Assembly (NCBI RefSeq): GCF_947623445.1 | Contig: NC_135245.1 | Span: 19,599,501 to 19,663,500 of the forward strand | Direction of reading: 5' to 3' | From: Clavelina lepadiformis | Taxonomy: Eukaryota; Chordata; Ascidiacea; Aplousobranchia; Clavelinidae | Length of the DNA stretch: 64,000 bases | Shown: positions 11,037 to 63,346 of the stretch, piece after piece | Numbering within the stretch: position 1 is the first letter of the stretch | Layout of the letters: each line of letters opens with the position of its first letter | Made by a program: the position numbers and the translations under genes | The notes under the pieces: generated by a model | Database searches by the model: none | What the model was told of the DNA's origin: nothing | The model's input: only the letters and a program-made list of their open reading frames with translations

Positions 11037-12557
11037 TAAAGATTAGGCACTTTGGAAAAAGCACTCAAATATGTTTCTGTTTGTGCGCGGCGCCCCGTAG
11101 TTGCAGTTAAAGCGAATTGAAGTTGTTTTCACTATTTAATGGACCAGGGAGGCACGGCGCCAAGTTATTTTTAAGCACGCAAGATATTGACAATAACTTA
11201 TACTCTATAAGTTACAGTAAATTTAATTTGAAATATTTGTCGAAAATAGGCCAGAAACTTGTAAATACAAATGTTCTATAAATGTTAGTTAAAACAATAT
11301 TTACAGTTCTCTAGAATCTACCAAATCTAGGTTTTTGAGAGAACATGATCGCGAACGTGACATTGTTGATGTGAAATGCGTCTTCCAGCCTCACCGCTTA
11401 TGATGAATTTCCACTGCAAAGTTATACATTTTTGAATATCGATTTTTGACATCTGGTGTCATCTACATCTATCTACATATATATCATCTATACGTGACGA
11501 GCTATGTGCGTCATATGCAACTTGCGTGGACCGCGTACACTTCAACGAGGGCTATGGTTTTGTGTGTAAAGTGCAGTTTGTGTAGTTTTGTGCGTCAAGT
11601 ACGTTACATGCCTTACGAGCACTACGTGCGGGCAATAGGGATGTCGAGTAAAGACCTTTCTCAGTCTGACGGTAAAAATTCCAAAACCTTGCTACGTTTC
11701 ATAGCACTTGAACTTACATGTTCGTATGTTCAGCATTTTATAGTTTAGCTGCTTGGCAGAAAACAATCAGTCATCGAAAATGCACATTTAGTTTAATGTT
11801 AAACTACGGTTATAGCAGATTAAATGGTAAAGCTTGAAGCGCACAAATTTACGGATTAATACTGAAGCCAGGGCACATGAGTGGGTTCCACGACATATGG
11901 CCGCGGGAAAGTGGCCGCGAACAAACTCACCGGGGTCAACTGAACGTGACGTAAATTGACCGCAGACAAACTGACTGTGACATAAACTGGCCGGCGATCA
12001 AATTAACCGTCGATAAATTGGCCGGCGATCAAATTAACCGACGACAAATTGGCCGTCAAAAGGTCAAAATTCTAATTCACTATCTAGTCACTTCTGTTTA
12101 TTTCAATAAACGTTTCAATGAGTATTGAAATAAAAAACAATTTTGTTAAAAACAAAGGAAATAGTTACAAACAAATATTTACTTTACATATCATATACTA
12201 CCGAGTTTAAAATTTTGACCTTTTGACGGCCAATTTGTCGCCGGTTAATTTGATCGCCGGCCAATTTATCGACGGTTAATTTGATCGCCGGCCAGTTTAT
12301 GTCACAGTCAGTTTGTCTGCGGTCAATTTACGTCACGTTCAGTTGACCCCGGTGAGTTTGTTCGCGGCCACTTTCCCGCGGCCATATGTCGTGCTCCCAC
12401 ATGAGTGTGTGGTGAAGTTGCAGAAAATTATAAGTTGTAAGCACTCGATTTTTGCAAAAATTAAAATTCTGAGAAGCCGCCATTAATTGATAAACACTAT
12501 CTTCTATTGGAATTGAACCGTAAGATAAATTCATCCAGAAGTCGTCCAAAGAGCATT
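11037..12557. other. intergenic, holding a foldback element
   Basis: Apart from the 515-bp foldback transposon at 11884-12398 nothing is recognised. A 100-codon plus-strand frame at 11446-11748 starts in a run of simple ATCTAC-like repeats and shows no protein-like features. Confidence 0.5.
11884..12398. mobile_element. foldback MITE, 515 bp, copy 1 (Mutator-like 9-bp target duplication)
   Basis: The two arms, 11884-12071 and 12211-12398, are inverted repeats of 188 bp that start GGTTCCACGACATATGG on the left and GGGAGCACGACATATGG on the right strand. The loop is about 139 bp and AT-rich. Inside each arm the word GGCCGGCGATCAAATTAACC is repeated twice. The 9-bp direct repeat ACATGAGTG flanks the element at 11875-11883 and 12399-12407. 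There is no transposase frame. A 9-bp duplication with long terminal repeats fits the Mutator superfamily best, though the assignment is an inference. It lies just beyond the 3' end of the neighbouring LU-sushi-vWA gene. Confidence 0.88.
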
Positions 12558-15500
12558 TTAGTCCTCATTTAGCCCAACTAAATCACACGGGTCTCTGCAG
12601 ATCTGTTCCGTGATTTCAATCGCAAAAGCATCGTTCAAACTGCTAAAGCCTCCATCTACGAAAAAGTAACGATCTCCTGCTCCTGCGATGCTCAGAAGAT
12701 CGTCTTCGATGTTAAAATCGACTCGAGCGCCTTCCGGCCGGATACCGATGGCGTAGGTCTGTGAAAAGCAAAGGTATCATGATCTTGAAAGTTTACTGTA
12801 AGTTCAAGTAACCTTAAACACTTTCCACGATCACTTGAAAAAGACGATATTTGGAATTTACAACAGTCGTGATATTTGTTATATTCGGGATTCGAACGAA
12901 GATTTACGATTTTAGATAAAAGGATTCTGTAAACAACCGTTTTGGAAATCTTTGTCAAAAGTTGAACAAAATTTCTTTTCGATTCCTATTTAGATCCAAT
13001 ATCCATAAAAAACCAACAAAACGGCTTAAACTTTTAGCTTTGCAAACAAGCGCTTCAATTTCTACTCTCACCGCCTATCTTAAATCTCAGGGACCGCGGA
13101 AATGAAGAGAAAAATGCGACCGATGTCGCGTGATTTCATACGTACCAGAGCCCCCTCATCTCGGAGGAGTTGCGACGGGATGGCTACGTCATCCTGGGAT
13201 CTCCCGTCAGTGAGAACAACCACGAGATCGCGGGCAGAGGGGCGATGGCCATGACCTTCGGCTAGGATGACCTCCCTCGTGAAGTTGATCGCTTGCCCGG
13301 TTCTGGTTCCTATGAAGTTATTGTGACGTCATTATGACATTGATTATCTGCCCTTGTTCATCATGGTTATCGTCTTACAACATTTCTTATCGATCTGCTA
13401 ATCATACAAATACTTGGTATAATGTTGTTATTAGATCTATTTCATATCTCTAGATACCTGATCCATCGTATGGCAAGTTTCTGATCGCGTTAAAAAGTTC
13501 AGTTTGGTTGTAATCATTATCAAGGTCAATTTCATTTACTGTGTCCACTTCTCTGTTGTATCGGATTACGGCAACCTCCAAGCTATCGTGGCCCAACGTA
13601 AACTTCCTGCGAGAACAAAAATGTTGTGTTTTAATTGCAATTAACTGACACCTAGTGAACGAAAATTTAGGAATAATATTGAACTTATAGTTAATAATAA
13701 TGGAATAATAGAATAATAATTCCAGTTAATAGCTGTTGATAGTTAATGATACTGTATAATAATGTTCAACTAGTTAATAAAAGTTAATTTCGTGAGTCGT
13801 GTTAAAAGCGATCCTGACCTTGGTAGCTATTACACCCAGTTAATAGATTGCAGGCTTGCTGGCAACAACCTTAATTACATGTGCGTGTGACGTAACAAAG
13901 ATGACGAAGACGTAAAATAAGAGGCCGACTCACGATATAAGAAGCTCCGTGAAGGCGAGCATCGTTCGCCATCCGTCTTCACCAACGGACGAGGAGGAAT
14001 CGAGGACAATCACCATGTCAACCACAACTTGCTCCGGGCAAGGTTCTAGGAAAAAGCATTTTAGCTGATGTCGGAGATCCTATGCATTCATCTCACAAAA
14101 GCTTTGACTATGTTAGCTCCAGATTCAGTTGAACCAATGGGTTTAAACAGTTATCCATAAATTAGCACTTTAGCGGTGCCCTTATTATAAGACGCTGGTA
14201 TCAACTGAACCCAAATTGAGGCCAGTTTTATGGTCAACGATGACGGAAACTTTTTTAATATGGGCGGGTCCAGTTAATGTATAACTTGGTAACCAAATTT
14301 CTTGACTTGAGTTTTGCTGTGGATCTGCCAATTTTGAACACGTATGGTTTTTAAAAATTGAATGAGCTAGCCCGACCTCTATCCTCCGATCTATACTTAG
14401 GGTTAAATGTTGGCATTGTACTTGCGCAACAGGGCGTGTCCTTGTCCCATCGTCCGTCGTTGAGACAAACATTGCTCACGACATCTGGCGGATAGATTTC
14501 GGACGGACTTTCGCAAGTGAACGTGCAACTGGACTCGAATAAGTTTCCGTTCGAACATGAAATATTGCCGTTTGTGTTGGCGCCTTGATCCGGGCAAGAT
14601 ATCCCTGATTATAAATAGTTGAATATCCATAAATTTGTGGTTGACATTAAACTACACAACTTATTTTGTGCAAACCAACACAACAAAGTCAGTTTCTAAC
14701 ATCCATGGCTATCCTAAAACGCTTGATTCACATCCTAGCAGTACAGGCAGGTCATGATTTATGAGTAAACTTACGGTTACATGAGGTTTCTCGTGGTCCG
14801 GTGGGAGTGTTAGTGCTCCAATCAGCGGCTTCAAAACCGTTTGGCTGGCAAGTTGAAGTTCTCGCTCCGTTCAAAGTGAAGCCGGGATCGCACGAAAATC
14901 TGAACATTGTGATGTAATGATATTAACAACCGCAAACGCTTCCATCATTCTTAACTTGCGTCTGTAACGTTTCAAAGGTTGTTCATAGTCTTGTACAGTA
15001 AAATCTTTTTAACTTCTACCGCCAAGCACGTCATTATTTACGTGCAAACGCTGTTAAGAATGTTGCGTCTGCTGCACGAGATCGCCCCGTTGCGGAGAGA
15101 AATATGCGGCGGGTTGCACAGCGCTTGGGCACAGCGAGGCGCTAGACTGCTCCAGGTCCCGTCATCGTCTATATAATTGAAAGTAAAATTCTCTAAAATT
15201 TTACCGAAACAACTTAGACCTGAACTAGCTGGCCATGACTTGCTTGAGCCAGACCAATGGTTCCCTAAGTGGGGTCGGGAAAGCAATTTGAAAGTTTTGC
15301 GAAGGTTTCCCCAATAGTTGGTACCGGCATAAAAGGTCCTCTTTTAAACTGATACATTAAATTTTATTGACTTGAAATTTAAACAAGAGTCAAATTTACT
15401 TGGTAATGGCACGATTAAAAATATTTTAGCTTGCAGCTAATTCGTTTTGGATTACACAGGCGTATGCAAATCATGAAATATAATTCCAGGGTCGGTAGCG

Positions 15501-16956
15501 CAAACTTTTTGAAAGCTTTGGGGACCACCGAGCTGTAGACAGACACAAGCAAGCGGATAATTTGAAACTTTTCACCAACTTACTACAAGTGGATGTGACT
15601 GAACCGACCAGATTGTAACCATCGGGACATGAGAAGGAGCACGCACTTCCAACTCTGTTGCGGTTCGAACAATCAACCGATCCCGGATTCGGTGGGCGAT
15701 GACGTGGCCGGCATGCCCTAACTGTGACGTAACAGAAGACCAATTCACGAAAAAAGTTGTTTGTGGTTCAGGTCAGTTGATCAGTCGGATTTTTAAATCG
15801 ATTTATCAATTAGCTATAAAATGTCGAAACAATGCAAACGCGGCGAAGACAACCAGTTATTTGTTTAATTCTTTCAACGATGGCTACAAAAAATTCAACT
15901 CATAGATTTTAAATAACGTCCCAGAAATGTAGGCCACACAATCCCACAAATTTTCGTTAACGCCCCACCTGGCTGTCTGCCAAAGCACTGATGTGGTCCA
16001 ATGTTACACGCGTCAGACTGACAGCAACAACGACACACCATATTAGGAAAGTTGCTGTTGCATTGTGTTGGCCGCCAGGCTGGCCTGTTGTTCTAAAAAT
16101 CGTGACGCAGGTTTAGTTTCAGTGGAATAGGTTCGACCGATATAATCTAAGGTACGTTTGTCGAACATTCTGTGACAGAAGTGTCGCTTATTACAAATTG
16201 TTTATTACGTTTTAACAAAACAAACAATTGTCAGAATCTAAGTCACTGAGCATCTCATGCGAGATGCGCGTCCTTTTACCTGGACTTGATTGTTATCGCA
16301 AGCCAGTGGTTGTTTGCAATGTTTGAAAATTATTCTTTCTGGTCCAAGGTTAATTTTTCGTTCTTCGATTGCGCAAGCAAGCTAAATGTAGAAACAACAT
16401 CGACATTTTGATCTATGCCCTTTAATTTTCTTTTACTATAAAGTTTGGTTCTTTTACTAAGTTGTTTTCATCAAAAGTAAATGTAAAATAAATGTGAAGA
16501 ATTACACAATTTTAAACACGGTGTCCTCAGTTTGTACTTAAACTTACATAACTTAATGGAACTTTATGTCTGCCGTGAAAATAAGCGTTAAAAACATGGG
16601 ACACTTTACCTCGTTAGGCATGCATTCCTTCATCACTCCTCTGGTATCGCATTCTTGGTGAGATCGCGCATTTTCACAAGTCATACAACGAAGACCTAAT
16701 ACAACGAAATATATCAATCACGAATAGACAAAGAATCCAGTGTTATGCATCTATAATCTATATAAGTATATAAGTTAGTATAATTATGATACTAATACCA
16801 CTATGCAGCTTTTTCATGTACGTTTATAATCATATGACAGTGACGAAAATAATTCATGAGTGACATTTTTACTGTATTTTCTAAAATTGAACAAAGCGTC
16901 TTACCATTTACATTTGTGATTAAAATAGTAGTGAATATTACGTTGACAAAAATCAT
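12558..16956 (-). CDS. secreted LU - 3x sushi - vWA protein (paralogue A)
   Basis: Twelve exons join in frame to 520 residues: 16905-16956, 16610-16695, 16280-16381, 15969-16092, 15584-15721, 15042-15168, 14775-14899, 14422-14604, 13934-14045, 13458-13606, 13146-13309 and 12558-12758. Exon 1 is a signal peptide (MIFVNVIFTTILITNVN). Exons 2-4 make a Ly6/uPAR three-finger domain: LRCMTC at the start and CRCCCQSDACN at the end, the CC-x2-D-x-CN hallmark. Exons 5-8 hold three sushi/CCP units (for example DDGTWSSLAPRC and NDGRWDKDTPCC). Exons 9-12 form a von Willebrand A domain with an intact metal site: VIVLDSSSSVG (DxSxS), an INFTRE segment and VVLTDG. The stop follows the vWA directly, so there is no protease domain as in complement factor B. 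It is probably an extracellular adhesion or recognition protein; the ligand is unknown. Every exon phase agrees. Confidence 0.85.
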
Positions 16957-19424
16957 GTCAAACCTTTTGCGAATCTATGAAAATAAATCAGAAATATTAA
17001 TTAATTAAATGAGACGTGTTTACGGTAAAGAATTCTCATTAATAAATTAATTTCAACCAACAAAGTATTAAAAAATAAATGTATTTTTTCACCGAACAGT
17101 TTTAAGACTCCTCCTAACAACTACAAATTTAACGCTTGATTCAACCCAAATCTTCCAATGTTACTATATGAAGCAATATTATCAAGGTATACCGACGTTT
17201 TATAACCCAATACTTAAGTGGGGCAATTACTTTTTTCTCCTCTTTTTTTGGGACTGCGAGGTGCAGTAAAACCGGTTTTGCTGAACTACCGCGGTGATTT
17301 ACAAGATTCTTTCTTTCGGAAATAAAACTTCACTGGTTCAACATTAAGATTTATTTCTTTGATAAAACTTTCCTCGCTTTTCTACATTTGAAAAATTCAC
17401 TTTTCTTGACAGCTAATTGTACGCACTTGCTTCTATACACAACATGCAGTCTTGTTGTAGTTATAAGCACTACCAAGAATTCGTTGGTTGATCGAGATCT
17501 TTTCCGATCTTTTCTTGCGTTTCTTCTTCACCTCAGAGTGCATCAGAGGTTTTTTCTGAAAGGAAACAGCAAGAATCGTTCTGGGCAAATGTCGAATTGA
17601 TCTTGAACATAACATACAACTTATAGCAATCTCATTGTAATTATTCTCAATTCTGCATGGTCTGATTTTCAGAGGACGTTTTGAAAAAGAATACTTGCAG
17701 TAAAAATGAAAATAAAATACAATATATATTATATAAGGTGGCACTCTTCAGGTTAACTTTAATTTTAGTTCTTCTACACGAGCTTTCGCAAGCATGAGGT
17801 TGTCTCTTCAGGTGTAGTAAGAAAGAGTGCATAGCAAAAATACCTGGGCATGTTTTCTAAAAATATATCGGCTTTATTTTAAAATGTTTTTAAAACCCTT
17901 TGTTTCATGTAAAGAATTATATTGATTATTAGCAAGTATAATGTCGGCAACGATTTTTAAAAAGGAAAAAAAATGTGAATTATTAGGTTGTTAGAATACT
18001 TGATGCTTACGTAAAAATTATTTTCGGTCTTATTTGTGACAATATCCCAAAAATGTGGCAAAAACGACGCCAACCTTAGTTGAGATTCAGTGTTTTCTGA
18101 GATGCGATACTTGATTTTTCTTGATATCTATATCCAAAGAAATAAAAGAGTAAAGTTCACTTACAAGAGAGTTTGGTGGTGTTATTGCTCTTATCAAACG
18201 ATGTTCTGGTAATGTTAACCAATTTGTAACTTATATACTTTACGATTAATGAACGTTTTGTCCTTGTAAGTTTTTTTGTATCTACTTTCTTTACGGAATA
18301 ATGTTACTAATTTCAATTTTTCGCCAACCAATCATTGGGTTGAGTTTCGTTTTCAAGTCGAGGAAGAGGCTGTTGTCTAAAAGTTCTAAAAGAAAACTTA
18401 CTCTAGATGGGAAATGATGGCACTTTTCCATCTCAGATTCCTTCATCGCTACACCATTTGCGAAACATGAGCATACAGTAATATTTTTCTAGCTAAGTTC
18501 ATCCGGTCAAGTTCTTCAATGACGATCAAGCTTTTCGTCACCCTTCCTGACTCTTAGAGAACACCGAAATTCATTTTATCGATTATATGACAGATAAAGC
18601 AGTTCAATATGTACACCGTGTTGCCTGATATATTTTCTTCCAGGTTGGTTTAACAAAACTATACCTGCATAAACTATAACATATATATACATATATACCT
18701 GCAGTGTGTATTGCGCTAATGTTTCGTTTCATCTGTCTTTCAGTTATGGTTAGTTATTCCTATAGGAATACCTTTCAACGCCATAATAACTCTAATTCCA
18801 CAATAAGAATAAGAATCCTACAGTGACTAAAATATGGAATTTATTTTCAGATTTTTAAATGTCAATACTCAAGCTCAAAATTGTCTGAAAACTCTGAAAT
18901 TATGGACAATTTTCCATTTTTAAATCTGCCACCTCTCATGTGTTAGGATTATTCACATCATCGAACTTTCCTTTAACTTTCGCTCTCAGACACAAAACGT
19001 TTGTTAGAATCTAAATTCAGAATTTTGAGACGTGTTCTCGAAGCCTCACAAGAGCGCAATGATATGAATACAAAGGCGTAATTGGCCGCTGGGTTTCCAG
19101 CTAAGCACAGACACACAACATTGATGTAACACACTTATTCAACCAAAACATTTAGGACATTTTTCGCAAAGAACGCTATAGTCAGTTTTCTAGTTCGGGG
19201 CGAGTCGAAATGGCTTCATTGCAGAACATTGCTTCGATAATAGCAACAAGCGCGAAAATAATGTTGTGCGTTGTTGTGTTACGTATTGACTAAGATGTTT
19301 CGGGCCTAAGGAAAAACAACTAAGTTTCTATAATCACTATCAGTTTATTATCACCCAAAGTAGTGCATTAGTTTGCACAATCCACATACACATATGACCA
19401 TCGTTACAAGTTCAAAGTTCTTAT
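16957..19424. other. intergenic between the two LU-sushi-vWA genes
   Basis: 2.5 kb of AT-rich DNA. It must hold the promoter of the downstream paralogue (start at 16956) and the 3' end of the upstream one. Short frames near 17390-17830 lie on both strands in low-complexity sequence and have no protein-like features. Confidence 0.5.
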
Positions 19425-22400
19425 TTATAAATGGGGGGTAAGACCGCATGGATCACTGCAGATCTCTCTCGTGATTTCCTCCGCAAAATCGGCGTTCAAA
19501 CGGCTGAATCCGTCTTCTACTACAAAGAAGTGGTCCTCGGACCCGGCAATATTGAGAAGATCGTTCCTGATATCAAAGTTGTCAGGAGCCTGGTCGGGCC
19601 GGATTCCAATGGCGTAAGTCTGCAAAGTGATGCAACAATTCAATTGAAACGTATCGACGTCATCTAATGCAATGGCGATTATTCGTTTTAACGATTCAAC
19701 CAAAGAACAACTAAACCCCGGAGTGATTCAACCCAATGACTATTCAAACCATGGATATTGGTTGGGTCGTTCTGGGTTTAATTGTCCGTGGGTTGAACCG
19801 ACGTTTTATGTACACACGTATAAACAACGACTTGTAACTGGAATATTCCTAATTAATAATGTATTCTCATGTTTGCATGATGTCCATGGGCATGTGCCGA
19901 CAACATGCAGTGGGAGAGTTAACTATATAAATGCTTTACCATAACTCCACGTTCACGAAGAAGTCTGGAGGGGACAGCGACATCGTCCTGTGACCTTCCG
20001 TCTGTAAGAACGACCACTAAGTCGTGCGCGAACTCTCTATGTCCATGACCATTTTCCAGAATGAACTCGCGCGTAAAGTTTATCGCGTTACCGGTCCTCG
20101 TCCCTGTCCAGAAACTTCTGTTGCTTCAATCGCATTTTCGCTACCTTGTGATGTCTGACTTATGTACTTTGAACGCTCATAATGCTACAAGCGGTTTGTT
20201 GCATGATAACTGCTTACGTCATAAAACACTGTCATGCTTTTACACTTCTCAACGATCGTGACTTACCGGATCCGTCGTAAGGTAAGCTCGAGATGGCAGC
20301 AAAGAGCTCGTCTCGGTTGAAACCATTATCTAGCGGGATGATGTTATCCGTGTCCACTTCCGCGTTATAACGGACAACAGCGACTTCGACAGAATTATTT
20401 CCCAGAGTGTAAAGTCTGGTAGCGATAAATTTATGGTGAAATATTCTATCGACAGAATAATTCCGTTGCCGAAACAAAATCACAAATAATAAAATATTGT
20501 CATCGCCAAAAGGAATTAAACAACAGCATAGTGAGGTAACAATAGAAGAGATGGACGAATTCATTTTACTGACGTGGTTAGGCTCAACAAAAAATAACAT
20601 CCCTAAGAGGAAGTAAGGCTCTTAGCAAGCCTTGACGTGAACTTACTAAAGTAAAAATACCGGTATATAAGTCTTAACATATCACTCATCACCTTATAGC
20701 TGCAACTTATGATCCCTAAGGTGAGACTTAACGTGACCTTATATAGTACCGGCAATAATATTGTATAGTAGAATAGGTCTTAAACGTAACTAACTAACTC
20801 GTAACATGACTTTCAACCAAAGACAAGCAAGAAGCAAAACTCACGATAAAAGGCTTCTGGTAAAAGAAAGCAAAGTTTGCCATCCCGCCTCACCGACAGA
20901 AGAAGAAGAGTCAAGAATGATGACCAGGTCTACAACCACCAGTGACGGACACGGATCTAGTGACGTCATTGCCAAACAAATGTCAATCGTATACTTGCTT
21001 GTATGATATAGGTTGCATATAGACCAAAAATTATATGTTCTAGAGTCTAGACTACCGTGATATAGCATAGAATGGTTATCTACATATGCTTGTGCTAAGC
21101 GAGCTTTGTTGTTCGAGAGTGATAGGAAACAGACTACACCGCTATATATTAACATGCAGCCAGCTGATGAAACGCACATGGACCAGTATATAGGAAAAAC
21201 TTAGTTATTTACAACATAAATTGTTAACGTTCGTTTCTTACTTACAACATAAGAAAGCTGTCAACATATAAAGGAACTCATATTTCTATGTCATCCTGCA
21301 GTTTTAACATTCGCAAAAAATGGAACATATCTGACTTTAAAATGTATCGTAATCCGTATACAAACCGAGTGAGATAGTTCTAATTTGATTTCTGTGTAAG
21401 TGCGCACAATGGATTTATTTGTTGTTCTCTTAAATATGTTCCAATTGGTGTCAGTGCCTGATACAGTATTTTCTTGAAACGCAGAACGAACTAACACCAT
21501 ATTATTTTGCTCCTAAGTTCTACTTTTAATTCTACCCAAGGGCAAAAAAGTTATTTATTTGATGTCTTTTTACTTGCACAACACGGCGCCGGTTTGCTCC
21601 AGCTTCCGTCTTCCAAACACACGCTACTAGAGGAGTCTGGAGGATAAATCTGGGCAGGAGCCTGGCACTGGAAGTCGCACTTTGATCTAAAACGGTTTCC
21701 ATCGCTGCAGGTTGTGATACCGCCACGTACGACTTCTTGATTGCCGCAAGAGATCGCTGCTGAGCATAAAATGACGTCAATCTGACGCTAATTTTCTAAG
21801 TTATATAAGAAAGATATTTAAAGGCAGCAATCAGTAAGAAAAAATAAAGAAAAATCACGCAAACATTCACGTCCGCATGTGGGAGCTGGTGAGCTCCATA
21901 ATAAGATTCCATAATTTCTGTACGTTTTCTCGTCTTTTGTAGCAATAAAAATAAAAGGAGGCAAAAATCAGTTCCTCTTTTTAAAGAAAAAAGAACTCAA
22001 AGAGTTAACGTAGCCAGTTATGGTCAGGTAACCACTCACAAAGCCATAATTAGAAGTATTATAATGACCACGATTAAACAAAAAGCAAAAAAAAAACTTT
22101 ACCAGCTTTCCCAAAACATCTTTCGTGTCCAATGTTACATTCGTCCTCAAAACAGCAGCATCTGCAGACTGAGTTTGGAAACTTGTCGTTGCACTGTATG
22201 GGCCACCAAGCAGGGCGATCATTCTTTAAAAGAAAATTAACAAAATGTTGGCTTTAAAAATTGTTATGACACCTAAAAAATTTATGCAAGTTTGAATAAT
22301 TTGTGATGGATTAAGTTTTACACACCAGAGTTTTCCTTTATTTTAGCATGAATATGATTATTCACTCAGAAAGTAAGTTGTTACAAAAAGTTTGCCGGAC

Positions 22401-23894
22401 GTTTGCAGATTGCGTGCATTCAAACACCATTTTACCTGTATGTAGTTGTTGTTACACGCCAGTGGCTGCTTGCAGTGTTTAAATATCAAACGACCGGGAC
22501 CGTAATTGACCTTTCTCTCTTCAATAGCGCATGAAAGCTGCAGTCATAATATTTCGCTAAGATGCTCGCAGCATGCATTTTGGCACGCAAGAGCACATGT
22601 ATTTATAGGCCTACTTTGATCTGCTATACGCTGTGTAGATGTACGGTGGTAAGGGATGAGCCGCGAGGAAGATTATTCTGGTTCGTGCGAACCCGAATAT
22701 CATGAAGGTCGACACGAACGAATCCCGAATCTATTCGTATTAGAACCAAACAATAAAATTTCCTCCAAAAGCTGTCAATTTTTTCTTCTAAAATGACGTA
22801 ATCGATAAACAAATCGCTTTGTTTTGAAAAATAGTGCTTAAAAAACGATTGAAAAAGCAAAATCGTTAGGAACACGACCTTCATTGTAAGTACTATTGAC
22901 TCTAGTTTAGCTTTGTCAGGAAACTAGATCCTCATTTTTAACAAAAGTTAGCAAATTTATAAGTAATTTTGTATTCGGGTTCGTCATTGTTGGTATTCGT
23001 GTTCGCCCAAATCTTCCATAAAGGCGATATTCGGCGAATCTATTCGGGTTCGGGTTCAGGTTCGTATAGGCCCATCCCTATACGGTACCATGGAATACTA
23101 ATTGACTGCGATTATTACTTCATTTTCAAGGCATTCTCTCATTACTCCTTGGCTGTCGCAATCTTCGTGCGATCGCGCATTTTCACAAGTCATGCAGCGA
23201 AGACCTGGCAAAGTTAAAAAACGGTAAATGCATGAAAGTATACAGCAAACGGTTCCACGACATATGGCCGCGGGAAAGTGGCCGCGAACAAACTCACCGG
23301 GGTCAACTGAACGTGACGTAAATTGACCGCAGACAAACTGACTGTGACATAAACTGGCCGGCGATCAAATTAACCGTCGATAAATTGGCCGGCGATCAAA
23401 TTAACCGACGACAAATTGGCCGTCAAAAGGTCAAAATTCTAATTCACTATCTAGTCACTTCTGTTTATTTCAATAAACGTTTCAATGTGTATTGAAATAA
23501 AAAACAATTTTGTTAAAAACAAAGGAAATAGTTACAAACAAATATTTACTTTACATATCATATACTACCGAGTTTAAAATTTTGACCTTTTGACGGCCAA
23601 TTTGTCGTCGGTTAATTTGATCGCCGGCCAATTTATCGACGGTTAATTTGATCGCCGGCCAGTTTATGTCACAGTCAGTTTGTCTGCGGTCAATTTACGT
23701 CACGTTCAGTTGACCCCGGTGAGTTTGTTCGCGGCCACTTTCCCGCGGCCATATGTCGTGCTCCCACAGCAAACTATGCCGTCTAAAACCTTATGGGTAA
23801 CGAAGTTAGAAATAAAGTTTGTTTTGATAATTGTAAGAGAAGCATTACCTTGGGCAGTAGCAATTAATGACAACATCAATAAAACGGTATTCAT
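19425..23894 (-). CDS. secreted LU - 1x sushi - vWA protein (paralogue B)
   Basis: Nine exons join in frame to 386 residues: 23849-23894, 23119-23204, 22436-22537, 22103-22223, 21574-21759, 20845-20956, 20267-20415, 19940-20103 and 19425-19619. Exon 1 is a signal peptide (MNTVLLMLSLIATAQ). Exons 2-4 encode the Ly6/uPAR domain (LRCMTCENARSHEDC ... CRCCCFEDECN). Exon 5 is a single sushi unit ending LEDGSWSKPAPCC. Exons 6-9 are the vWA domain with VIILDSSSSVG, NFTREF and VVLTDGRSQDD, so the metal-binding site is complete. Exons 2, 3, 6, 7 and 8 have exactly the lengths of their counterparts in paralogue A (86, 102, 112, 149 and 164 bases) and all phases match, so the two are tandem duplicates. 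B lacks two sushi units that A has. Intron 1 carries a foldback element and the next intron a hAT-like element. Confidence 0.85.
22650..23080. mobile_element. hAT-like non-autonomous element in intron 2 of paralogue B
   Basis: The left end TAAGGGATGAGCC and the reverse complement of the right end TAGGGATGGGCC form imperfect inverted termini of the hAT 'AGGGATGGGC' type. The flanks TACGGTGG (22642-22649) and TACGGTAC (23081-23088) agree at six of eight bases. Sub-terminal words rich in GGTTCG and CGAAT repeat on both arms. No transposase frame is present. The element lies between the first and second LU-domain exons. Confidence 0.5.
23251..23765. mobile_element. foldback MITE, 515 bp, copy 2
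   Basis: It has the same length and structure as the copy at 11884-12398, and only two base differences were noticed by eye over 515 bp. The arms are 23251-23438 and 23578-23765. The target duplication is a different 9-mer, ACAGCAAAC, at 23242-23250 and 23766-23774, so the two copies are independent insertions and not part of the gene duplication. It lies in the first intron of paralogue B, between the signal-peptide exon and the LU domain. Confidence 0.9.
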
Positions 23895-25396: not shown

Positions 25397-27664
25397 AAGG
25401 CTTAAGAAAGTATGCTGAACAAGGTGCTATGATACCTTGCATGAACAGGAAAATATATATTCTTTGCGTTCTCACGTTACGCAACTGTTGCATTCAGCTT
25501 GTTAAGGGTGAGTCAGCTATAATGAAGGACGATAGACCCGTCATGAGTTCATTTTCGTCATATGCTAATGCAGGTTAAACCCCTTTTTAACCAGAATATT
25601 CTATCGTTGTATAAGTAAAGCGTTTTTTTGCTTCTAACTTCGAAGCTTGTGTTGTGCGAGGTTTGTGGAAACCCTATTTTTGTGTGTTATGGCGTGCTTT
25701 ATCAGTTTTATAGGCTATAAGGCTGGTGCCCGTGATGGAAAGTTTGGCACTTGTACGTCCGAGGTTCATCAATTGGTATGATATATAATAAAAAACATTA
25801 CACTACATTAAGAATATTAGGTTGCTTGAGCACCAAATTATGATATACAAACAAAGAATTAAAACTTCTGTGCATCGCCACCACGACGAAAAACGTCTGA
25901 ATGTGTCTTTGGAAGCACAATCCAGGCTATCTCTTGAAAAATTGCCATTTTTTTCCGGTCGGGTGTAGGCTTGACATGATGTGCGCACTTTAGGTTTGTA
26001 TATTGGTAGACCTTGTTGACTGGGACAGTCTGACAGAAATTCCGTGCACTCAATTCTGCAATTTTTAACTCATAAAGAGATTGAATCAGTCAATTTTTTT
26101 TATTTGTGCACTTTATGTGCGTCTGGCCATTTTTCTGCACCCGCACTTGTTATTTTTAGTTGTTTTATAGTTTGGTGCAAGCAAAATTTTGCTGAAAACG
26201 GCTATATTCTGCAGGCCGGTAAGCTAGCCTATGTCATCTGGATTTTTCCTATCTGACTGTAGAGAGGGTCAATTCTTCAGATCATAAAGTAGTAAACTTT
26301 TGTTAGTCAAAGGCCGCATTTCAGTTACTGGGAATTTTCCTTAGGCCTAGTTCATTTCTAAGCAAAGTTTGTGAAAACTTGTATTAAAATTTTTTCGAAA
26401 TGACCATCTCACTGGCGTTTGTTTACCAAATTTACTGAATGGCAATATATTGACTGACAGATACTCACTTATGGATTTATCCTCTTGTTTTTGACTTCTA
26501 TATAGTTGCTTACTAATAACATTTTTACTTGGGGATTTTACGTTGTTACGAAATAACCTAGGTACATGTGATTGTTATGCATAAGATATATAATTATAAG
26601 AACAACTGGTAGAACCCTGAGTTAGGTATATGGGGTTCCATGACAGTTGCAATATTAATTATGGGTTTTGCTACAGAACAGATTTGGAAAGGACTGTGCG
26701 AAACTGACCTTTGATCTTTAACCTTTGATGGTTTTCAGGACCTACTTACAGTGAAATAGTTGCTTGCTTTTTCTTTTGTTCCTTTTGTTTAAGGTAACTT
26801 GGTTCAAAATTGTTTTTTGATCACAATACAGTAGAACTTGCCGCATATATATTGCTTCGTTCTGGCTAAGATCCTATTGTTCATGTATTATCAAGTTTGG
26901 CTGATTGTGATTGGAATAATTTATCTTAAAGTTAATCAAACCTCTAAAAATTGTGACATTGCAAACTTTTAATCTGCTACAACTACACTAAACTTGTTTG
27001 CCAAGTTGTATATGATTATTGCTGATTTAACATAACTCCATCGTGCGTCACAACGTGTGTTTATAGACACACTATTTTGTCACTTTACACTGCTTTTATC
27101 AGTCCAAACAAAAATCACTTTCGTTTAAGACAATATTGCATTTGAGAGTTTAAATGAACACTACATTGTTGTACAAGAAATTAAAAGTGCTTTTTTGCAT
27201 TACTCAAATCCCAAATATTGAGCTTTTGCAGAAAAAGGGTTTTTAAGTATGTGTAGGCCAGTGTATATCAATCTGTTGTTTGCCAAAGCCACCTTAACTT
27301 GGTGACTTTGGCAAATTCTACTGTAATTTATTAGGCTACCTTCTTAGCTTGGTATGCTGTTGAAATAATTATCCTCGGAAAGAGGAAAGATTTTGATTGC
27401 ATTTGTTTACCAAGAATGCCTTTATGCATTGTTCAATAGATTTATGTCAAAACTGCTTTGCATAATTTTGAGTGGGACAATGAGAATTTGCTGCATGCAA
27501 ATAATTTTATCCTTGTTCCAATAATTCCAACTAAACATGATAAATAACAGCTGATGGGAGTTCCAAGTTAGTTACAACCTGATGTTGTAATTTTAATGCA
27601 TTTCAGCGCCTTAGTGCTTATGTTTTATGCTAAATAAGAAAATTTGTCATTACGCTGGTTTGTG

Positions 27665-30600
27665 ATGGAAGATGAACAAGTCAGTTATTTCAAGTTACGT
27701 GAGAAGGAATTAGGATTCCGACCGCAAAATGAAGTTGTTTATAACAGCATCCTCCCCTATTCTGATCACATAGATGAAGAATCAAAATATGCCCTCACGG
27801 CCATCAAAAGAAACCTTACAAAAGCTGTCTTGCTAAGGGATTTAAGGCCAGGAGTTGCATACTGGACAAGCCAACTAATTAGATATATTAGACTGTACGG
27901 GTTAAAATTTTCAAAGTCTGATCATGTCCATTTTATCAAGTTATTTTATGAACTAGTTACGTCACCTGGATTGGAAGGTGTTTTGGTTGAGCAGATATGT
28001 GGGGCCATGGGGAAACTTCTCAAAAAACGCCATCTACTCAGCAGAAAAGATTTACTGCTGGATTGGGTCCCACTTTACAAGCTATCAGAACAATTGATTT
28101 ACTCCAAAATGGAACCGATGGGCCTCGAATGGATTCCTCCAACTGTCGGCAGCAAAATAAATGGATTGATTCGAAACTGTCGCTCGTATTTTCCACCCGC
28201 GTCCACTCAGGCTATGCTGGATGAGTGGAGACCACTGCTTTGTCCGTTTGATGTAATAATGAGTAAAGCTTGCAAGTATTTGGATCTTTTTGTACCCACA
28301 CTTGTCTTCAGCAGAGAGGAAAGTGAATCATCATGGCGTTTGTGGATTAACGAAATCCTTGCTTTGTGGAAATCTGCCCAAAACGGTCCCACTTGGGAAA
28401 AGAACTTAGTCCATCTTTTGGCTCGCTTTGCACACAACAACATTGGCTACTTTGATTGGGAACCGTTTGTGAGCCAACTATGCACTCGGTTATTGAGGTC
28501 AATGCAACTCCCAGTTGGAAAGCTACAGCACACATCATCATTAACCCACCAATTACCGATAGAGACTGCTAGCCTGTGGTTGATTTCGATGATGGGTAGA
28601 CAATGCAGCAAGATTGTATTGCAGCATCTTAGACACTTCTTTGATGCAACAGGGACCTACTTTCATCCTTCCAACACTGGTAAGTGGTGTGGCAGCTTGC
28701 TGAACTTCTTGCAAAACATTGCGGCCAAATTTGCTGCGAGGGTACATCGGGAACGTTACAAGACTCAGAGATGGGAACCGAAGGTACCAGAGTCACATTT
28801 GTTACAAGACAGTGACATTGAAGAATTTGTTTTAATTTTAAAGCCCGTTGCACTTATGACCCTTTATAGTAAAATAGGTCCCACAATGGCTAGTAAAGTT
28901 TTACTGATTTTGTCGAATTTAAGACCCGATCTAATCCTGCCTGAACTCGTGGATAAAACTTATATTGCCTTGGGAACTCTGACGGAACCACACCAAGTGC
29001 GTTCTTGTCTTTCGGCGTTATCTTGTAGCATTTCACCAGGAATAAGGGAGTTTCCAGAGGTTCGTAAACACATCATCCCACTGCTCTTCCAGTGTCTTCC
29101 TGCACTTGATCCTAATGATCTGACAAAGTCGTTGCTTGCGTTCCAATTTATCAGCACCGCCCTTTCCATGATCCCGGTGGTAAATTGCAGCCGCGCGGTG
29201 CAACTCCGAACTGATCTTAACGAAGAAGAGCTTGAACTGTGCAACATGACTGATCAGTTTGAAGACTTTGCCAGTCAGTACATGGAGCGTTTATTTGTTC
29301 TACTCGAAGGTCTTAGCCAGGGTATTGAATCTCATAGCGTCGAATCTTCAGATGATCGTGATGTAAGAATCACTCAGTCTGAAGGAATATCCGGAATGAT
29401 TCTTGTGACCTCGACAGCAATTTTGCTTCAACAGTCATCGACTGATATCTACAGATTATGTTTGGACAAAGTTTTTCGTTTTGCCACGACTAATCTTCTG
29501 GCTGGCTTCGTTGCCATGTCAACCACTGCAACGTTGTGTGCCGCAACAGTGAAGATCAATCCAGCAGAGGGTTATGCAAAGTTTGTGCCCTACTTATGTA
29601 ATGAGATATTAGAATATTTTGCTGAAACTCCAGAAGCCAAAACAGAAGAAAAATTGGACAAAAAGCTTCTATGGGACTTGAAAATCTTGTCTGAAATCTG
29701 CCACAATGGAACCGAACATCTTCTTCAGTATAAGGACCTTCTGTACGATGTTGCCAGCCATGGCATTGAGATGACTGCAAAGGATGGTTACCAGACAGCG
29801 ATTAAAATCATTAAATACTGCATCAGAGGCTGGACCATTTTCTTCTGCAGTGACAGAAGAAGCCTCTCTTACAGCATAGACCAAGACCCAGCTGAATACC
29901 TTGCCATAAGGGACTGGGGGAAGATTTCAAACCCCCGAGATTTAGACATGAAATGGCACATTCCATCGGAGAAAGAACTGAATGCAGCTTTTGAGTGCTT
30001 TGATCGTTTCTTTATTCCTGCATTGCAAGAGTTATCTGATTTCAACGCTGACAAGTGTGACTTAACCAAAGAAGAATTGCGTAAAATTCTGTACTTAGTG
30101 AAAGAAGTTCTTATGGTTGCCTCTGTCTTGCTCCCAGAAGATGATTCAGGTTCGGTTTGTCTTGAACGGGACTCAGTTGTTAGCCTAAGAAGTTGGCCCG
30201 TGCTCACAACAGAGCTGTTACCATTTTATAACTCATGTATTCTCAAAAGCGGCCATAGCAACATTCGGAAAAGAGTGTTCGAAATTACCCATGGCACACT
30301 GCAAAAACTTTTGTCCTGTCGCGAGGACGATGTTAAATCAGTCTGCTTCATCGTGGATATCTACAGTCAGTGTTCGCTGATGCATGAACAGCAGAAAGCA
30401 GAGTTTGATCAGCACTGGAAAGTTTTTACGACCTACAAAAATGCCATGAAAAATCCTCTAAGACAGAAAAAGCAACGGGAGAGATTATCTTTGATTGACA
30501 GGGCTGTATTACAGCATCAGATGAGGGTCCTGGCAATAGAACGGTCAAACTACACCAGTTTACATCATGGTGTTATGTTGGATCTGATTCAGCTATCGAC

Positions 30601-33600
30601 ATCACATTACATGAAAGTGAGAGGAAACGCCCAGGCTTTATTTTTTCACGGACTCACGTTAGTCCCATCTTCAGCTTACAGGCAATATCTTCCATTGATT
30701 CTAAAACATCTTGACAAGGCCAACACTGTTAGCCATCAGGAGTTAAAAGGTGCCCTGTATCTTCTTATCGGAAAGCCGAAAAGCAGGTCATTTCTTGGTT
30801 TTTATCACCGGTGGGATGCCATTGCAAAGGTCTGGCCTGCACTTATTGCCGTACCACACTCTGAAAAGCCGTCCATTGCTAAACTGTACGACAAATTAGC
30901 TTTAAAAATTCAAGCCTATTTCAACAGCATTGCTATAGAATCTGTTGTATCCAGCGAGTCTGTGCAAGCTGCGGTAGATTTCATTCAATCAAATGATGTT
31001 CCTGAAGCAGCAGACATAGATATCAAAAATGTCATTGAAGAAGGTGAAAAGCACTCGAGGTGTGTCGGCGCAAAGAATAAAGGCTTGTACGAATCCCTGG
31101 TAAACTCTCTTATTGACTTATATGAAACGGGAAACCTCACATGGAAGTACGTTGAGCTAGTGTTGGGAATGCTTTCACTGCTTCTACGACACGACATTCA
31201 AATACCACGACTTACCAAACTCTTCCTATCCCTACTGACTGACGATGTTATCTCTGTGAGAACTTTGGCACTTGCATGCGTCGGATCAATTATGAAGCAG
31301 CAGAAAAGAAAACACGCCGTGGAGATGTTGTCCCTCGAAGACATCACGGGCCACAATGATACCACCAGAGCTCAACCTCATCCAGGTGATCGGGTTGACA
31401 ACAGCTGGCATCAGTATAACAGCAAGGATCTGCCAACCAACCAAAAGAAGTTCGACAACACAAAGTTTGTTGATAAAACGCACTGGGGTTACTATGCGTG
31501 GCCTAAATTGATAAAGACCTATGCTCATTATGAGAAGCAACCGAAACTTGACCGGGAAAGGGATGAACTGAACGAAGGGGAAGTTGCCGTTTATGATTTT
31601 TTCACCAATTCCAGCTCTGTGGAAAAATTGATCAACTTTTTGTGCTTGGAAAATGTGAAAGGAAAGGACAAGTTCGATGACAAGAGAATGGATATGTTCA
31701 GAGGTTTATTTCGAAATTATGGCGATACATTCGTTCCGTTATTTAAGCCAAACATTTTAAGGTTGGTTGAAGAAAAGCAAGAGAGTCACCAGCGATGTGC
31801 CGCCGAAATTATTACAGGGATTGCAATGGGTTCGAAGCATTGGCCTTTTGAAAAAGTTAACAACATGTGGGATTGGATGATACCAACTCTGAAGAAAGCC
31901 GTTGCCAATATTAGCACCGAGACGACAAAAGATTGGGACAAAACATTCACTCAAATTGTCCAGAATCGCGATCCACGCCGGATTTATTGGGTTTTGGATT
32001 TTCTTGCCAACGAGCCTGCAACTTTGAGCAACACTGTCCTAGTCGAATCGAGCAAGTTGTTCATCTTCCAGGGCGGTATCCATCAGCAGGAGTGGAGAGT
32101 GCCAGAAATTTTGCAAAAGATGTTGAACCACGTCGAACCACTTTTAGGTCACCAGTACAAGAGTATTCGCAATCGTATCGGGAGTGTTCTTGCGAGTATT
32201 TTTCTCTACGACGTAGAAATTCTTGGCAAGTCTCAGAAATGTCAACGCACGCCGTCAGCAGCTGAATTTGTTAAGCGCGTGCTGCCAAGGTTGGAAATTC
32301 TTTTATCGGAAGACACTCCCCCGTTAAGTAATGCTTCTTCAGAGACATCTGTTGGTTCAATTTCTGAGGCTGCAGATCAAGAAGAACTCGTAGAGGATTA
32401 TAGCATGCCATTGGGGATACCAGTAGCAGGCGGTGCTAATATATCAGGAGTGGAAACTTTACCTCCTGAAATCATCCATCAAATTCAGGAAGGATTAAAG
32501 AAGTTGCTCCCACCTGGCTCACCGATGCCTGATCTGATGAGAGCAAGAGAGTTACAAGATCACCTTCCTGTTAACTTGGTACAGGGTTCGATGATTCAGA
32601 AGGCAAGGAAATCCGGTCTTCTCCGTCCAACAGTGGATGAATCAGCACAGGTTAGCCCTAGTTTGATGATGTAATAATGTATCAATTTAACATATATAGA
32701 GCAAGTGGAAGCTTTCAATTAATTGTGATTTGTTAAATTTAAGGGAATTTAGAAAACCTAATAATTTCTAACCATTTCATAGACGGGAAGTGATACGGAG
32801 CGCAACGAAACAATCCGAATCTACAAGACAGTAATGAAGTGGATAGTGAGCGCGCAACGCAGCACGATGCAACCATTTCGTTCGTGTTTCTTGCAGCTGC
32901 TTCCTTTGATATGCAAGTTGTATCCAGTGGATAAGCAAGGCTCAGATGAAGAGCTGCACCGGGACACGCGCCTCTGCCTATCCTGTCTGGCGCAAAGCAT
33001 CGTGCAAGATGACGACATCTCAAAAGTTGTTGACACTATTCGTGATATAGTTGACATCAACTCCTGGCACGCTCGCCATACCATCCTCTCATATATACAA
33101 GTCTTTGTTTACAGCAACCTGTTCTCAGTCGGGCAAAATAAATCGATAATGTTGGAGTTGCGAGAAATCATCATAAGTCTCCTTCAAGATGATCAGTATG
33201 AGGTGTCTCGCATGGCTAGCATCACACTCAGCGGATTGATCCAGTGTGGAGCAATAGATTTGGACGATGAACTTCTCCAGCTCGGATACGACATGTGCAG
33301 CACCAAATTGAAGAGAAAGAAAAAAACAGGCGCAAATGATGTAGAGGACGTAAATTTTCAGAAGAGATTGCTGAAACGACACGCCGGAGTTTTAATTTTG
33401 AGCGCCTGCGTTCTCTCTTCACCCTATTCAGTACCTGACTGGATGCCCAGGGTAGTGATGAGATTGTCGGATCATCTCCACGACATCCAGCCAATACAGG
33501 GAACAATCAAGAGAACTTTGTCCGACTTTCGTCGAACTCACCATGATAACTGGCATGAAGATAAATTGAAATTCTCCAGCGATGAATTGGCCGTTCTCAC

Positions 33601-34589: not shown

Positions 34590-35807
34590 TTACTTACGAC
34601 CTCTCGGCCCTCGTTCAGTTTTTGGAAATTGTAGTGGGAGTGACAACACAGCACTTTCTTTCCTGATCCCTCCGCTTGTGTGGACTTTAATGGAGCCACC
34701 TAGTGCTCGAACATGGAGTGACAACTTTTTACTTGAAATCGCAAAAGCTTCCTTAAACAATTCTGCGTCAGTAGCAAACGAATCAATGTTCCACGCTACG
34801 ACCAGGGCCACAGCAAGCACTTTGTCTTTCATTCTTTGTGGCATTTTCCTCTCTCTCCCATGACCACCCAAAAAGAATTCACTGAGCAACCAGTTTTTCA
34901 CAGGTTCTGCCATATCGCTGAACAAGTCACGACTACGTCTGAATTCGCTGCTTTTTAGTTTAAAAGTTTTAATAAGATATGCCATTAATTGCAAGCAGCA
35001 TGCGTACTCTGTGTGAACATCCGGACTTTGCACAATGGCAAGAGGAGGATTTCTGGCATGTTCAGTGATCAATCGCCATGACAACGCTCCACCTTTACTT
35101 TGCCACTGTTTGATAGTTTGTAGAGTTGGTCGGATAAATTGTTCAGCTTCAGGAATAAGGGCCTTGCTCACCTCCTCGGGAACAATTTTTCCAAGAGGGT
35201 AAATGTCCTCAATGACATTGGCATCTTTGTTGCAAGGAATTATGGTCTGGGCGTCAGACGGGTCTTCTTCAGGCGACATGAAACCAGATGTCTCCATCAA
35301 TGCTTCAACTGAAGTCTGGACAGCCTCTGTGCTATCCGCAACTTTGTTCCTCAGTCTTGTAACCATCGCTCGTTTTCGTTTGTGACTTCCGAAAACCTCC
35401 GTCAAATCATCCTGTTTTTCAGAAAATGAGCGCTCATCTTGCTCACTTTGCTTCTTAGTTTTTTCTTTTTCTTCATCGTCCCTCTCAACATCTGCAACCA
35501 TAATTGGTCTCAACTTGAAATGATCAGCTTCAAACAGTTGGGCAATGCCGGTCCGTTTGTCCACTTCAGCGATTACATATTTATGAGCATAAGGATATTC
35601 TTCGCAAGTTTCATAATTGTTTCCAACATATTTCAAATGAAGTCCATCTGCCAGTAAAATTTTTCTCTTTTTAAGCTTCAGGTTGTTCGTCTGTTTGTGT
35701 TGAAACAACTCACAGCTTAATGTGGTCCCATTTTGAAGACAACCGTTGGAAAACTCTGCTATGAGTCGTTTACGTGAGTTTGGGTTGTGTTTAAGTACAA
35801 GAGACAT
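34590..35807 (-). CDS. POLR1E: RNA polymerase I subunit A49/PAF53
   Basis: One uninterrupted frame of 405 residues. The N-terminal half holds the conserved YVGNNYETCEEYPYAHKYVI and 'RTGIAQLFEADHFKLRP', the dimerisation module of the A49/PAF53 family that pairs with A34.5/PAF49. A charged linker follows (EKEKTKKQSEQDERSFSEK, then KRKRAMVTRLRNKVAD). The C-terminal half, about residues 190-400, contains 'DIYPLGKIVPEEV' and then the predicted tandem winged-helix region, including KDKVLAVALVVAWNIDSF. Length equals that of the family (about 400-420). The protein sits on Pol I in the nucleolus and helps initiation and elongation on rDNA. The gene has no introns in its coding part and is convergent with PSME4. 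A longer plus-strand frame inside it is a shadow. Confidence 0.92.
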   Translation of the reverse strand: MSLVLKHNPNSRKRLIAEFSNGCLQNGTTLSCELFQHKQTNNLKLKKRKILLADGLHLKYVGNNYETCEEYPYAHKYVIAEVDKRTGIAQLFEADHFKLRPIMVADVERDDEEKEKTKKQSEQDERSFSEKQDDLTEVFGSHKRKRAMVTRLRNKVADSTEAVQTSVEALMETSGFMSPEEDPSDAQTIIPCNKDANVIEDIYPLGKIVPEEVSKALIPEAEQFIRPTLQTIKQWQSKGGALSWRLITEHARNPPLAIVQSPDVHTEYACCLQLMAYLIKTFKLKSSEFRRSRDLFSDMAEPVKNWLLSEFFLGGHGRERKMPQRMKDKVLAVALVVAWNIDSFATDAELFKEAFAISSKKLSLHVRALGGSIKVHTSGGIRKESAVLSLPLQFPKTERGPRGRK

Positions 35808-37831
35808 TGCCAGACAGGTATCAGATTTTACAGTTTATGTAAAAATACGTGCTGACGTGTCTCTTATCCACTTAGGCTATAGCGTTGGTAAACAAGAAAG
35901 TTTAAATACATTTTAAGATTCAAAATATAACATTTCTATTTAACAACGTCGGTTAAAGAAACAAAACCGGGAAACTTGCCTAAAACGAAATTCGTCCAAT
36001 TACACACCATTTTACAATAACTATTAGGATATGAATAAGTAGAGCTACTGAGCTACCCTAATAACCTATGTACTGTAGTCCTAACCTATCTCTTTCTCTT
36101 GCAATCAATAGTCGAAATAAGTCCATGCTGAAAAGACTTAAACAGTGTTGCCAATTTAACATTTCAGAAAGAGTTATTTTTCTTGCAAAATTGATTTTTG
36201 GTCTAAACCAGTGATTCTCAACCGTGGCTCTCAACTGTACATTTTGCGGTTCTTACTAACTTCGTGAAAAATTAATCAGTTGTACCAGAATTGCAACAAA
36301 GGAAGTAAAAGAAATCAAGAATTAGCGAATTGTCTCAGCAAAGATCCCGTGTATGAAGTATCAATGTTACCAGGTTACTACTGTTCTTCTGTGTAAAATC
36401 ATTTTGAGGTTTGTGACGTCATAATATATTTAGTCCTGATCGTTAGCTGTAGCAATAAATGGCGATGACTATGGCAGCTCCTTACAAACCTTAGGTTTGA
36501 AATTTGGCTCTGGCACTAAAAAGGTTAAGAATCACTGGTCTAAACTCTAAAGTGTGCATTTTAAGAACTTGGTCACCCGAAGATAAAAAGGACGAAGTAC
36601 TTTGAATAAACTAAAATCGCTGGGAAATAAAAAATATTTCTAAATCTATTGCCACAACTAAAACTCCAAATGTTATAATTCCGGTAGCGCGGATGCAATT
36701 TTACATTCTCAGCATGTTGCTTACATAGCATTAATATTGTTTTAGATAAATTTTGTCAAAATATTTTAGAGTAAGAGTTGGACTGCGAGCTAGATAAAAA
36801 AAACCTTGCTCATAAGTAACGTAAAAAAGAGTGTAATTGGCAAAACTAATTTTTTGTCAACCCGGATGGTGGATGATTGACAGATACACCATAGCTAGGG
36901 ATTGGAACGCAAGGCACATTTTTCTCTGCATCCTTGGTATCATGCAGATACCTAGCACCTCGTTCAACACACTTTCGTAAACCTCGGTATAGTCTGCAAA
37001 CGGCAGTTGATAAAATTGCTAAAAAATTTGTTCCATAATTTTCAGTGCTTACCGTTTTTTTCATTACGTCACGCGTTGTGCATCGTCGTATATAAGATTA
37101 GAATTTTAAGTATGGGTTAATTTTTCTTGCTAAAAATGGGCTGTAGCCTATGTATCCGCTTCAATACCGTTATTAAAACATGGAATTTTCTTACCCAAAT
37201 TCTATTCCACATGAAGGTACATCCGAACATCAAAGTGGCAAAAAAGTTGTGTGGTGCTATAGTCTGGTCGAAGTTTAAGATGTCTAGTTGCAGTTAAACA
37301 CATCCACTTTGGCCAAAAAAATCGTGTTTTGTCTATTTTTCACAAATCATACTTCATAACAGTTTCTTTACCCACACCAAGTTTTGCCTGTGCCAAGAAA
37401 CATGTTCTATGGCAATAACAACTTTATTTTCCTGAAAACATTGCAATCAACGAATCTTAAATTTTACATAAGTTAAAGGGTATAACAGGAAAAGGACATA
37501 ATAAACATAGGACTAAAAGTATAACATAAAATCCCACAACGCACCACTCCATACAGGAAACAGATTTTTCCCTTACAAGCAAATATCTTTCAAATCATTT
37601 AATTTTTATAGAACTTTAGCATTGAAACACATCACATTTAAGAACGGTCATTTATGCATGGAAATTTACCTTGACGACCTTATTACTATTTTTCTTGTAA
37701 ATTCTTATCATGGATTTGAAAGCTGGTCTGAAAACACTTATGGTGTTAAAGCAAAATATAGGAGAAAGTTGACTGCAACAAAAATAATACTGGCAAAAAA
37801 ATTAAACTATAATTATACACAGTTTTCAAGT
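35808..37831. other. intergenic between POLR1E and the SENP-like gene
   Basis: Contains one clear hAT non-autonomous element (36209-36538). Otherwise AT-rich with no supported exon. It should include the promoter of POLR1E near 35810-36100. Confidence 0.5.
36209..36538. mobile_element. hAT non-autonomous transposon (330 bp)
   Basis: The left terminus CAGTGATTCTCAACC and the reverse complement of the right terminus CAGTGATTCTTAACC form the classic hAT-type inverted repeats (CAGYGRTTCTCAACC). An exact 8-bp target duplication, GTCTAAAC, flanks it at 36201-36208 and 36539-36546. The interior has no transposase frame. It must have been mobilised by an autonomous hAT element elsewhere in the genome. 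Confidence 0.85.
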
Positions 37832-57646: not shown

Positions 57647-57782
57647 CGCCATAGGTTTCTTTGGTCATTGTATGAACTTTTAAGGCGCGCACTGAATATG
57701 TCAGTTTTTTATTTTTAACTAAATGAAAATGCCCTTTGAGTCCCGTACTTTTATAACATACCGCAGTTTGTGCCAGAGCGAG

Positions 57783-57848: not shown

Positions 57849-57873
57849 TCAAAAGTTTTGTTTTCGCTTTTTC

Positions 57874-63257: not shown

Positions 63258-63346
63258 ACCGACATAAACTTCTATTGTGCATTTGTTACAGCGTGTTTTT
63301 CCGTTCGATAAAATTCACTACTTAATTGAACTCTTCTATTCGGCAG

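Follow-up and report, generated by a model that had tools for sequence, protein, structure and literature searches.

A probable multigene family of secreted LU–sushi–vWA mosaic proteins in the ascidian Clavelina lepadiformis

Two tandem genes predicted to encode LU–sushi–vWA proteins

We analysed a 64,000-nt stretch of chromosome 6 (contig C6) of Clavelina lepadiformis, referred to here as the window. Hand splicing of the exons listed in a preliminary description gave two tandem neighbours, gene A and gene B, both on the minus strand. Gene A (16956–12558) has 12 exons and a predicted product of 520 aa, and gene B (23894–19425) has nine exons and a predicted product of 386 aa. The exons joined cleanly: all 19 introns (11 in gene A and eight in gene B) have GT–AG borders, their phases agree, and neither spliced frame meets a stop before the terminal one. 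As gene models, the two tandem vWA genes noticed earlier were therefore confirmed as real. The predicted protein of gene A consists of a signal peptide, an LU domain, three sushi modules and a vWA domain, followed by the stop; that of gene B has the same order with one sushi module. Splicing, Pfam, an LU profile and homology all agreed with this order, which the preliminary description had proposed for both genes.

In gene A, exon 1 (16905..16956, minus strand, as are all exons below) carries the start codon and signal peptide, as judged by hand splicing. Exons 2–4 (15969..16695; 16695-16610, 16381-16280 and 16092-15969) encode the LU domain, assigned by splicing, family alignment and profile. 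The three sushi modules are encoded by exons 5–8 (14422..15721; 15721-15584, 15168-15042, 14899-14775 and 14604-14422), assigned by splicing and by Pfam matches in two stretches; the last module is of the terminal type of the family and ends in PCC. Exons 9–12 (12558..14045; 14045-13934, 13606-13458, 13309-13146 and 12758-12558) encode the vWA domain with its DxSxS...T...D motif, and then the stop, according to splicing, Pfam and motif.

In gene B, exon 1 (23849..23894), also found by hand splicing, carries the start codon and signal peptide, and exons 2–4 (22103..23204; 23204-23119, 22537-22436 and 22223-22103) encode the LU domain on the same three kinds of evidence as in gene A. Exon 5 (21574..21759) encodes the single, terminal-type sushi module, identified by splicing and homology with no Pfam match. 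Splicing, Pfam and motif assigned exons 6–9 (19425..20956; 20956-20845, 20415-20267, 20103-19940 and 19619-19425) to the vWA domain and the stop. Both genes share one exon plan, in which the LU domain occupies three exons (entry phases 1, 0 and 0; exit phase 1), the terminal sushi module one exon (phases 1–1) and the vWA domain four exons (entry phases 1, 2, 1 and 0).

A 505-base foldback element, with 187-base arms that are 99% complementary and a 131-base spacer, occurs twice. One copy (11889-12393) starts 164 bases past the gene A stop codon. The other (23256-23760) falls within the first intron of gene B, and thus accounts for most of the 644 bases of that intron.

The N-terminal domain probably belongs to the LU three-finger type

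LU domains are marked by an LxCxxC start and a CC-x4-CN-type end. Pfam searches at E≤1 left this domain unmatched in the single proteins of genes A and B, and we therefore tested it with a family profile. Sixteen hand-assembled family members were used for the profile, with partial and near-duplicate sequences left out. When the profile was searched against the PDB at E≤10, all seven rows were LU or three-finger chains, four of them at E≤0.01. The best match was LYPD1 (E 2.7e-7, profile positions 1–90 of 99); LYPD6B and LYPD6 matched at E 0.0034 to 0.01, and three further rows had E values of 0.18 to 1.4. Pfam analysis of the 16 members at E≤10 found Toxin_TOLIP in 16 (best E 2e-5), UPAR_LY6_2 in 10 (0.0011) and UPAR_LY6 in three (0.0051). 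The LU domain of gene B alone scored 9.8 bits, under the curated Pfam cut-off of 21.2. The LU start, the LU end and similarity to LU profiles were all found in the family alignment and profile.

These results indicated that the predicted N-terminal domain of genes A and B is of the LU three-finger type, as the preliminary description had read it in calling the front domain Ly6/uPAR-type. A phmmer search with a single LU sequence had hit T-cell receptors (twenty rows, E 0.04 to 1.6) as well as LYPD6B (E 4.2); the family profile settled the assignment as LU. The domain searches suggested in that description were productive for vWA in both proteins and for sushi in gene A, and gave no Pfam match for LU or for the sushi module of gene B.

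LYPD1 and LYPD6 are single-domain LU proteins and are usually membrane-anchored. They are the nearest solved relatives of the Clavelina LU domain, which differs from them in its extra cysteines and in an invariant core (CK, NN..QN, AW and QCN) seen throughout the family alignment.

The vWA domain resembles those of collagen VI and PTMP1

Pfam matched the vWA domain with E 2.4e-35 in gene A and 1.4e-33 in gene B. The metal-site (MIDAS) motif of vWA domains comprises DxSxS, T and D, and all these residues are intact in both predicted proteins, in agreement with the earlier observation. We aligned the vWA domains of 10 of the 12 family models, with two near-duplicates left out and locus L050 not included; DxSxS was kept in 9 of the 10, and T and D in all 10. 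At locus L045 (C1:24610000-24619999) Phe replaces the second Ser of DxSxS, and the vWA domain of L050 (C7:19092600-19095400) lacks DxSxS and the later Asp. Because the metal sites of these two loci are damaged, metal binding is not universal in the family.

When a profile of the same 10 members was searched against the PDB, the top ranks went to collagen VI alpha-3, PTMP1, collagen VI alpha-1 and alpha-2, and integrin alpha-1. The best 60 of the 167 matches included no chain of factor B or of C2. Within those best 60, the A domains of collagen VI, PTMP1 (a mussel byssus protein) and integrin alpha-1 are thus the closest to the Clavelina vWA domain. Collagen VI has a triple helix, and to our knowledge none of these three proteins has LU or sushi domains.

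Pfam found Sushi in gene A with E 6.2e-16 in two stretches, within a run of three modules. No Pfam match was obtained at E≤1 for the single sushi module of gene B, which was assigned because it is homologous to the exon that encodes the terminal sushi in gene A and at other loci. The sushi run of gene A matched chains of CR1, CR2, factor H, DAF and factor B; such matches are expected of any sushi domain.

The proteins had been called factor-B-like. This holds for the order of sushi followed by vWA with an intact metal site, which factor B and C2 share. Kinship was rejected as unsupported, on the vWA ranking among the best 60 of 167 matches and on the lack of a protease: the serine-protease motifs GDSGG, TAAHC and SAAHC were absent from all six frames of the window, and the stop comes 6–8 residues past the last vWA cysteine, which bears out the earlier statement that the protease is missing. 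Factor B and C2 end in a serine protease and have no LU domain, whereas the predicted Clavelina proteins are the opposite on both counts; they also differ in their collagen VI-like vWA domain and variable number of sushi modules. The C2/BF proteins screened in one study (PMC11312191) are described there as CCP(1-7)-VWA-trypsin, and a title cited in PMC5465252 attributes an unusual domain combination to ascidian factor B. The Clavelina proteins are a warning not to take every sushi–vWA protein for a factor B relative.

The predicted proteins are likely secreted

The stop codon lies eight residues past the last vWA cysteine in gene A and six in gene B, and inspection by eye found no C-terminal hydrophobic segment in the modelled genes (A, B and other family loci). 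Phase-1 signal-peptide-like exons were found upstream of LU at 7 of 15 family loci, compared with 30 of 400 control windows, under thresholds chosen with genes A and B in view; with these two genes not counted, the figure was 5 of 13. At 8 of the 15 loci no candidate exon was detected upstream of LU. Since a predicted signal peptide stands in front and the stop follows soon after vWA, the proteins of genes A and B are likely secreted, as had been suggested.

LU and vWA exons recur in the same order across the genome

We searched 209.06 Mb of the Clavelina lepadiformis genome in 95 contigs; the published assembly is given as 210.1 Mb in 102 scaffolds (PMC10884593). A search of this genome for GH6, a domain type resembled by part of tunicate cellulose synthase, gave no match at E≤0.001; it was uninformative, since all 14 controls were equally without a match. 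The gene B LU domain returned 30 exon rows; 88 rows were obtained with a second LU query and 110 with vWA. Of the 88 rows, 59 with E≤1e-3 were grouped into 30 LU loci, and the other 29 were dropped. A vWA row lay within 16 kb downstream on the same strand at 22 of the 30 loci and on the other strand at none; 8 of the 30 had no vWA row within that distance downstream. Random points had a downstream same-strand vWA row in 0.19% of cases (200,000 draws, not matched for tandem clustering). Tandem clustering forms part of this co-location signal, because 10 of the 30 LU loci also have a same-strand vWA row upstream, belonging to tandem neighbours. The vWA groups (54) outnumber the LU loci.

We then examined 22 genomic regions, two of them short and the other 20 of 10 kb each. 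In 11 of the 22, an LU exon is followed downstream by a vWA exon on the same strand; some further family genes span the borders of these regions. The phases of genes A and B are kept in most modelled exons of the other loci, with some ambiguous exon boundaries there. The recurrence of this exon order at many sites, mostly in the same phases, excludes a chance origin of the LU–sushi–vWA order. On this genomic evidence, genes A and B very probably belong to a multigene family that encodes secreted LU–sushi–vWA mosaics in Clavelina lepadiformis (probability about 0.93).

The number of sushi modules differs between members. Gene A has three; gene B and loci L031, L039 and L050 have one; L046 on chromosome 1 has at least 20; and at L047 on chromosome 7, where exon boundaries are ambiguous, none was detected between LU and vWA. 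Counts made with a regular expression are lower bounds (gene A was counted as two and has three). As modelled, the sushi stalk is of zero to at least 20 modules and usually ends in a distinctive Cys-Cys sushi.

LU and vWA duplicate together and look constrained

Pairwise distances of LU and vWA were correlated over nine genes (r 0.71, p 0.0007). This correlation suggests that the two domains duplicate as a unit, as adjacent separate genes could also do. Identities between family members were 0.47–0.88 for LU and 0.27–0.99, mostly 0.3–0.5, for vWA, and LU thus appears to be the more constrained end.

Two recent tandem duplications were seen: L040/L041 (C1:6.48-6.49 Mb; DNA 97.2% and 98.6% identical) and L035/L036 (C6:2.24-2.26 Mb; 96.3% and 92.5%). 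In the chromosome-1 pair, synonymous and nonsynonymous changes numbered 1 and 1 in LU and 4 and 1 in vWA; in the chromosome-6 pair they numbered 7 and 0 in LU and 5 and 2 in vWA. The dN/dS values were 0 to 0.24 across these four comparisons. LU and vWA of the recent duplicates look constrained, on few changes, and these pairs gave no sign of diversifying selection in what is, with so few changes, a weak test. Between genes A and B, dN was 0.20 for LU, 0.46 for the terminal sushi and 0.24 for vWA; dN/dS is not given for this pair because synonymous sites were saturated.

Possible functions and alternative readings

Collagen VI-, integrin- and vWF-type A domains bind their ligands through a metal ion. 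The vWA domain of the Clavelina proteins would bind a ligand in the same way, the well conserved LU domain would dock on a shared partner, and the sushi stalk would act as a spacer that sets the reach. Each protein would then be a soluble, two-ended bridge in the tunic matrix or haemolymph that serves adhesion or matrix assembly, or coats particles and cells. We give about an even chance to this reading, the most likely one, in which the secreted proteins act in matrix or haemolymph by metal-dependent bridging or adhesion. A role in matrix adhesion fits because the vWA domain is of the collagen VI/PTMP1 type, and one in immune recognition fits because of the sushi modules and published ascidian leads on vWA and sushi proteins.

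Those leads also bear on a second, possible but less probable reading, in which the proteins are immune or complement-side factors secreted by haemocytes or papillae. The sushi modules would bind a C3-like protein or microbes and vWA would act metal-dependently as in factor B, without catalysis, making the protein a regulator, decoy or opsonin. The matches of the gene A sushi run to complement chains and the multigene, partly tandem family point this way, though such matches would arise with any sushi domain. Ciona vwa1c is reported from the larval papillae, Boltenia vwa1 from metamorphosis (PMC4109947), and vWA tags from a Botryllus rejection library (PMC2527998). More generally, vWA or sushi proteins are recorded in ascidian papillae, haemocytes and rejection reactions (PMC4109947, PMC12212465, PMC2527998, PMC10962819), none of them demonstrated in those texts to belong to the LU–sushi–vWA family. 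Against this reading stand the absence of factor B chains from the best 60 of 167 vWA matches, the absence of all three protease motifs from the window and the constrained rather than diversifying look of the recent duplicates, which have few changes.

It is improbable that the proteins serve fertilisation or self-recognition as gamete or egg-coat factors. The ascidian egg-coat protein CiVC57 does contain a vWF domain, along with EGF repeats and a ZP domain (PMC9265791); however, the same source reports that the sushi protein vCRL1 does not act in fertilisation self/nonself recognition, the accessible literature on ascidian fertilisation yielded no LU-plus-vWA protein, and rapid evolution was not evident in the duplicate pairs compared.

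Least probable of all is an exon-joining artefact, with an independent LU gene standing upstream of a sushi–vWA gene. The models derive from sequence alone, 8 of the 30 LU loci lack the downstream vWA row, and co-divergence is compatible with such an artefact, because neighbours duplicated together also co-diverge. On the other side, order and strand agree at 22 of the 30 loci, the phases match (LU exits and sushi enters in phase 1), and the spliced frame of each gene stays open from LU into sushi, so that LU and vWA are unlikely to belong to different transcripts.

The bridging reading can be extended, more doubtfully than the immune one, to a tunicate recognition repertoire of at least 22 loci. 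A conserved LU end would dock, a metal-dependent vWA end would bind, and a gene-specific stalk of zero to at least 20 sushi modules would join them, as a non-enzymatic alternative to complement proteins of the factor B type.

Comparison with described proteins

SVEP1 is a secreted mosaic with vWA and many sushi modules; its vWA domain is N-terminal, it also has EGF and pentraxin modules, and it is not known to carry an LU domain. Genes A and B differ from it in giving no Pfam match to EGF or pentraxin, the sole exception being a sub-threshold cEGF in gene A (E 0.22). Three tunicate proteins show partial likeness, and none has an LU domain mentioned in the text available: vCRL1 is a sushi protein (PMC9265791), Ciona KH.L141.36 has at least four sushi modules and is transmembrane (PMC10962819), and Oikopleura oikosin 35 is a vWA protein (PMC3390340). 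The preliminary description knew of no family with the order LU–sushi–vWA. This still holds within the accessible text of the open-access literature on the topic, where we found no description of a protein combining the three.

The modules are already known, and what appears to be new is the mosaic: a recurrent secreted type, apparently not yet described, in an ascidian. Ascidians belong to the sister group of vertebrates. The family illustrates clearly how a mosaic made by exon shuffling has then expanded, its stalk length varying with the number of sushi exons. Its members provide defined candidates for a role in settlement, tunic adhesion or haemocyte recognition.

Other LU loci and neighbouring genes

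At C3:20733781-20802203 (plus strand) there are six weak LU rows (E about 0.003), spaced 12.6-15.9 kb apart and with no adjoining vWA row; they are possibly a separate tandem LU family.

Within the window, the neighbours of genes A and B are genes for the proteasome activator PSME4 (27638-32671, plus strand), an RNA polymerase I A49-like factor (34593-35834, minus) and a Ulp1-type protease (38457-38912, minus). At 46240-47562 (minus), the frame of a retroelement carries RNase H and integrase domains. Galactosyltransferase or GT10 fucosyltransferase frames were identified by Pfam at 44125-44814 and 56996-57643 (plus), and by eye at 58662-59381 and 61708-62385 (plus) and 63350-63826 (minus). Among these glycosyltransferase frames (44125-63826), three similar fucosyltransferase frames stand in tandem.
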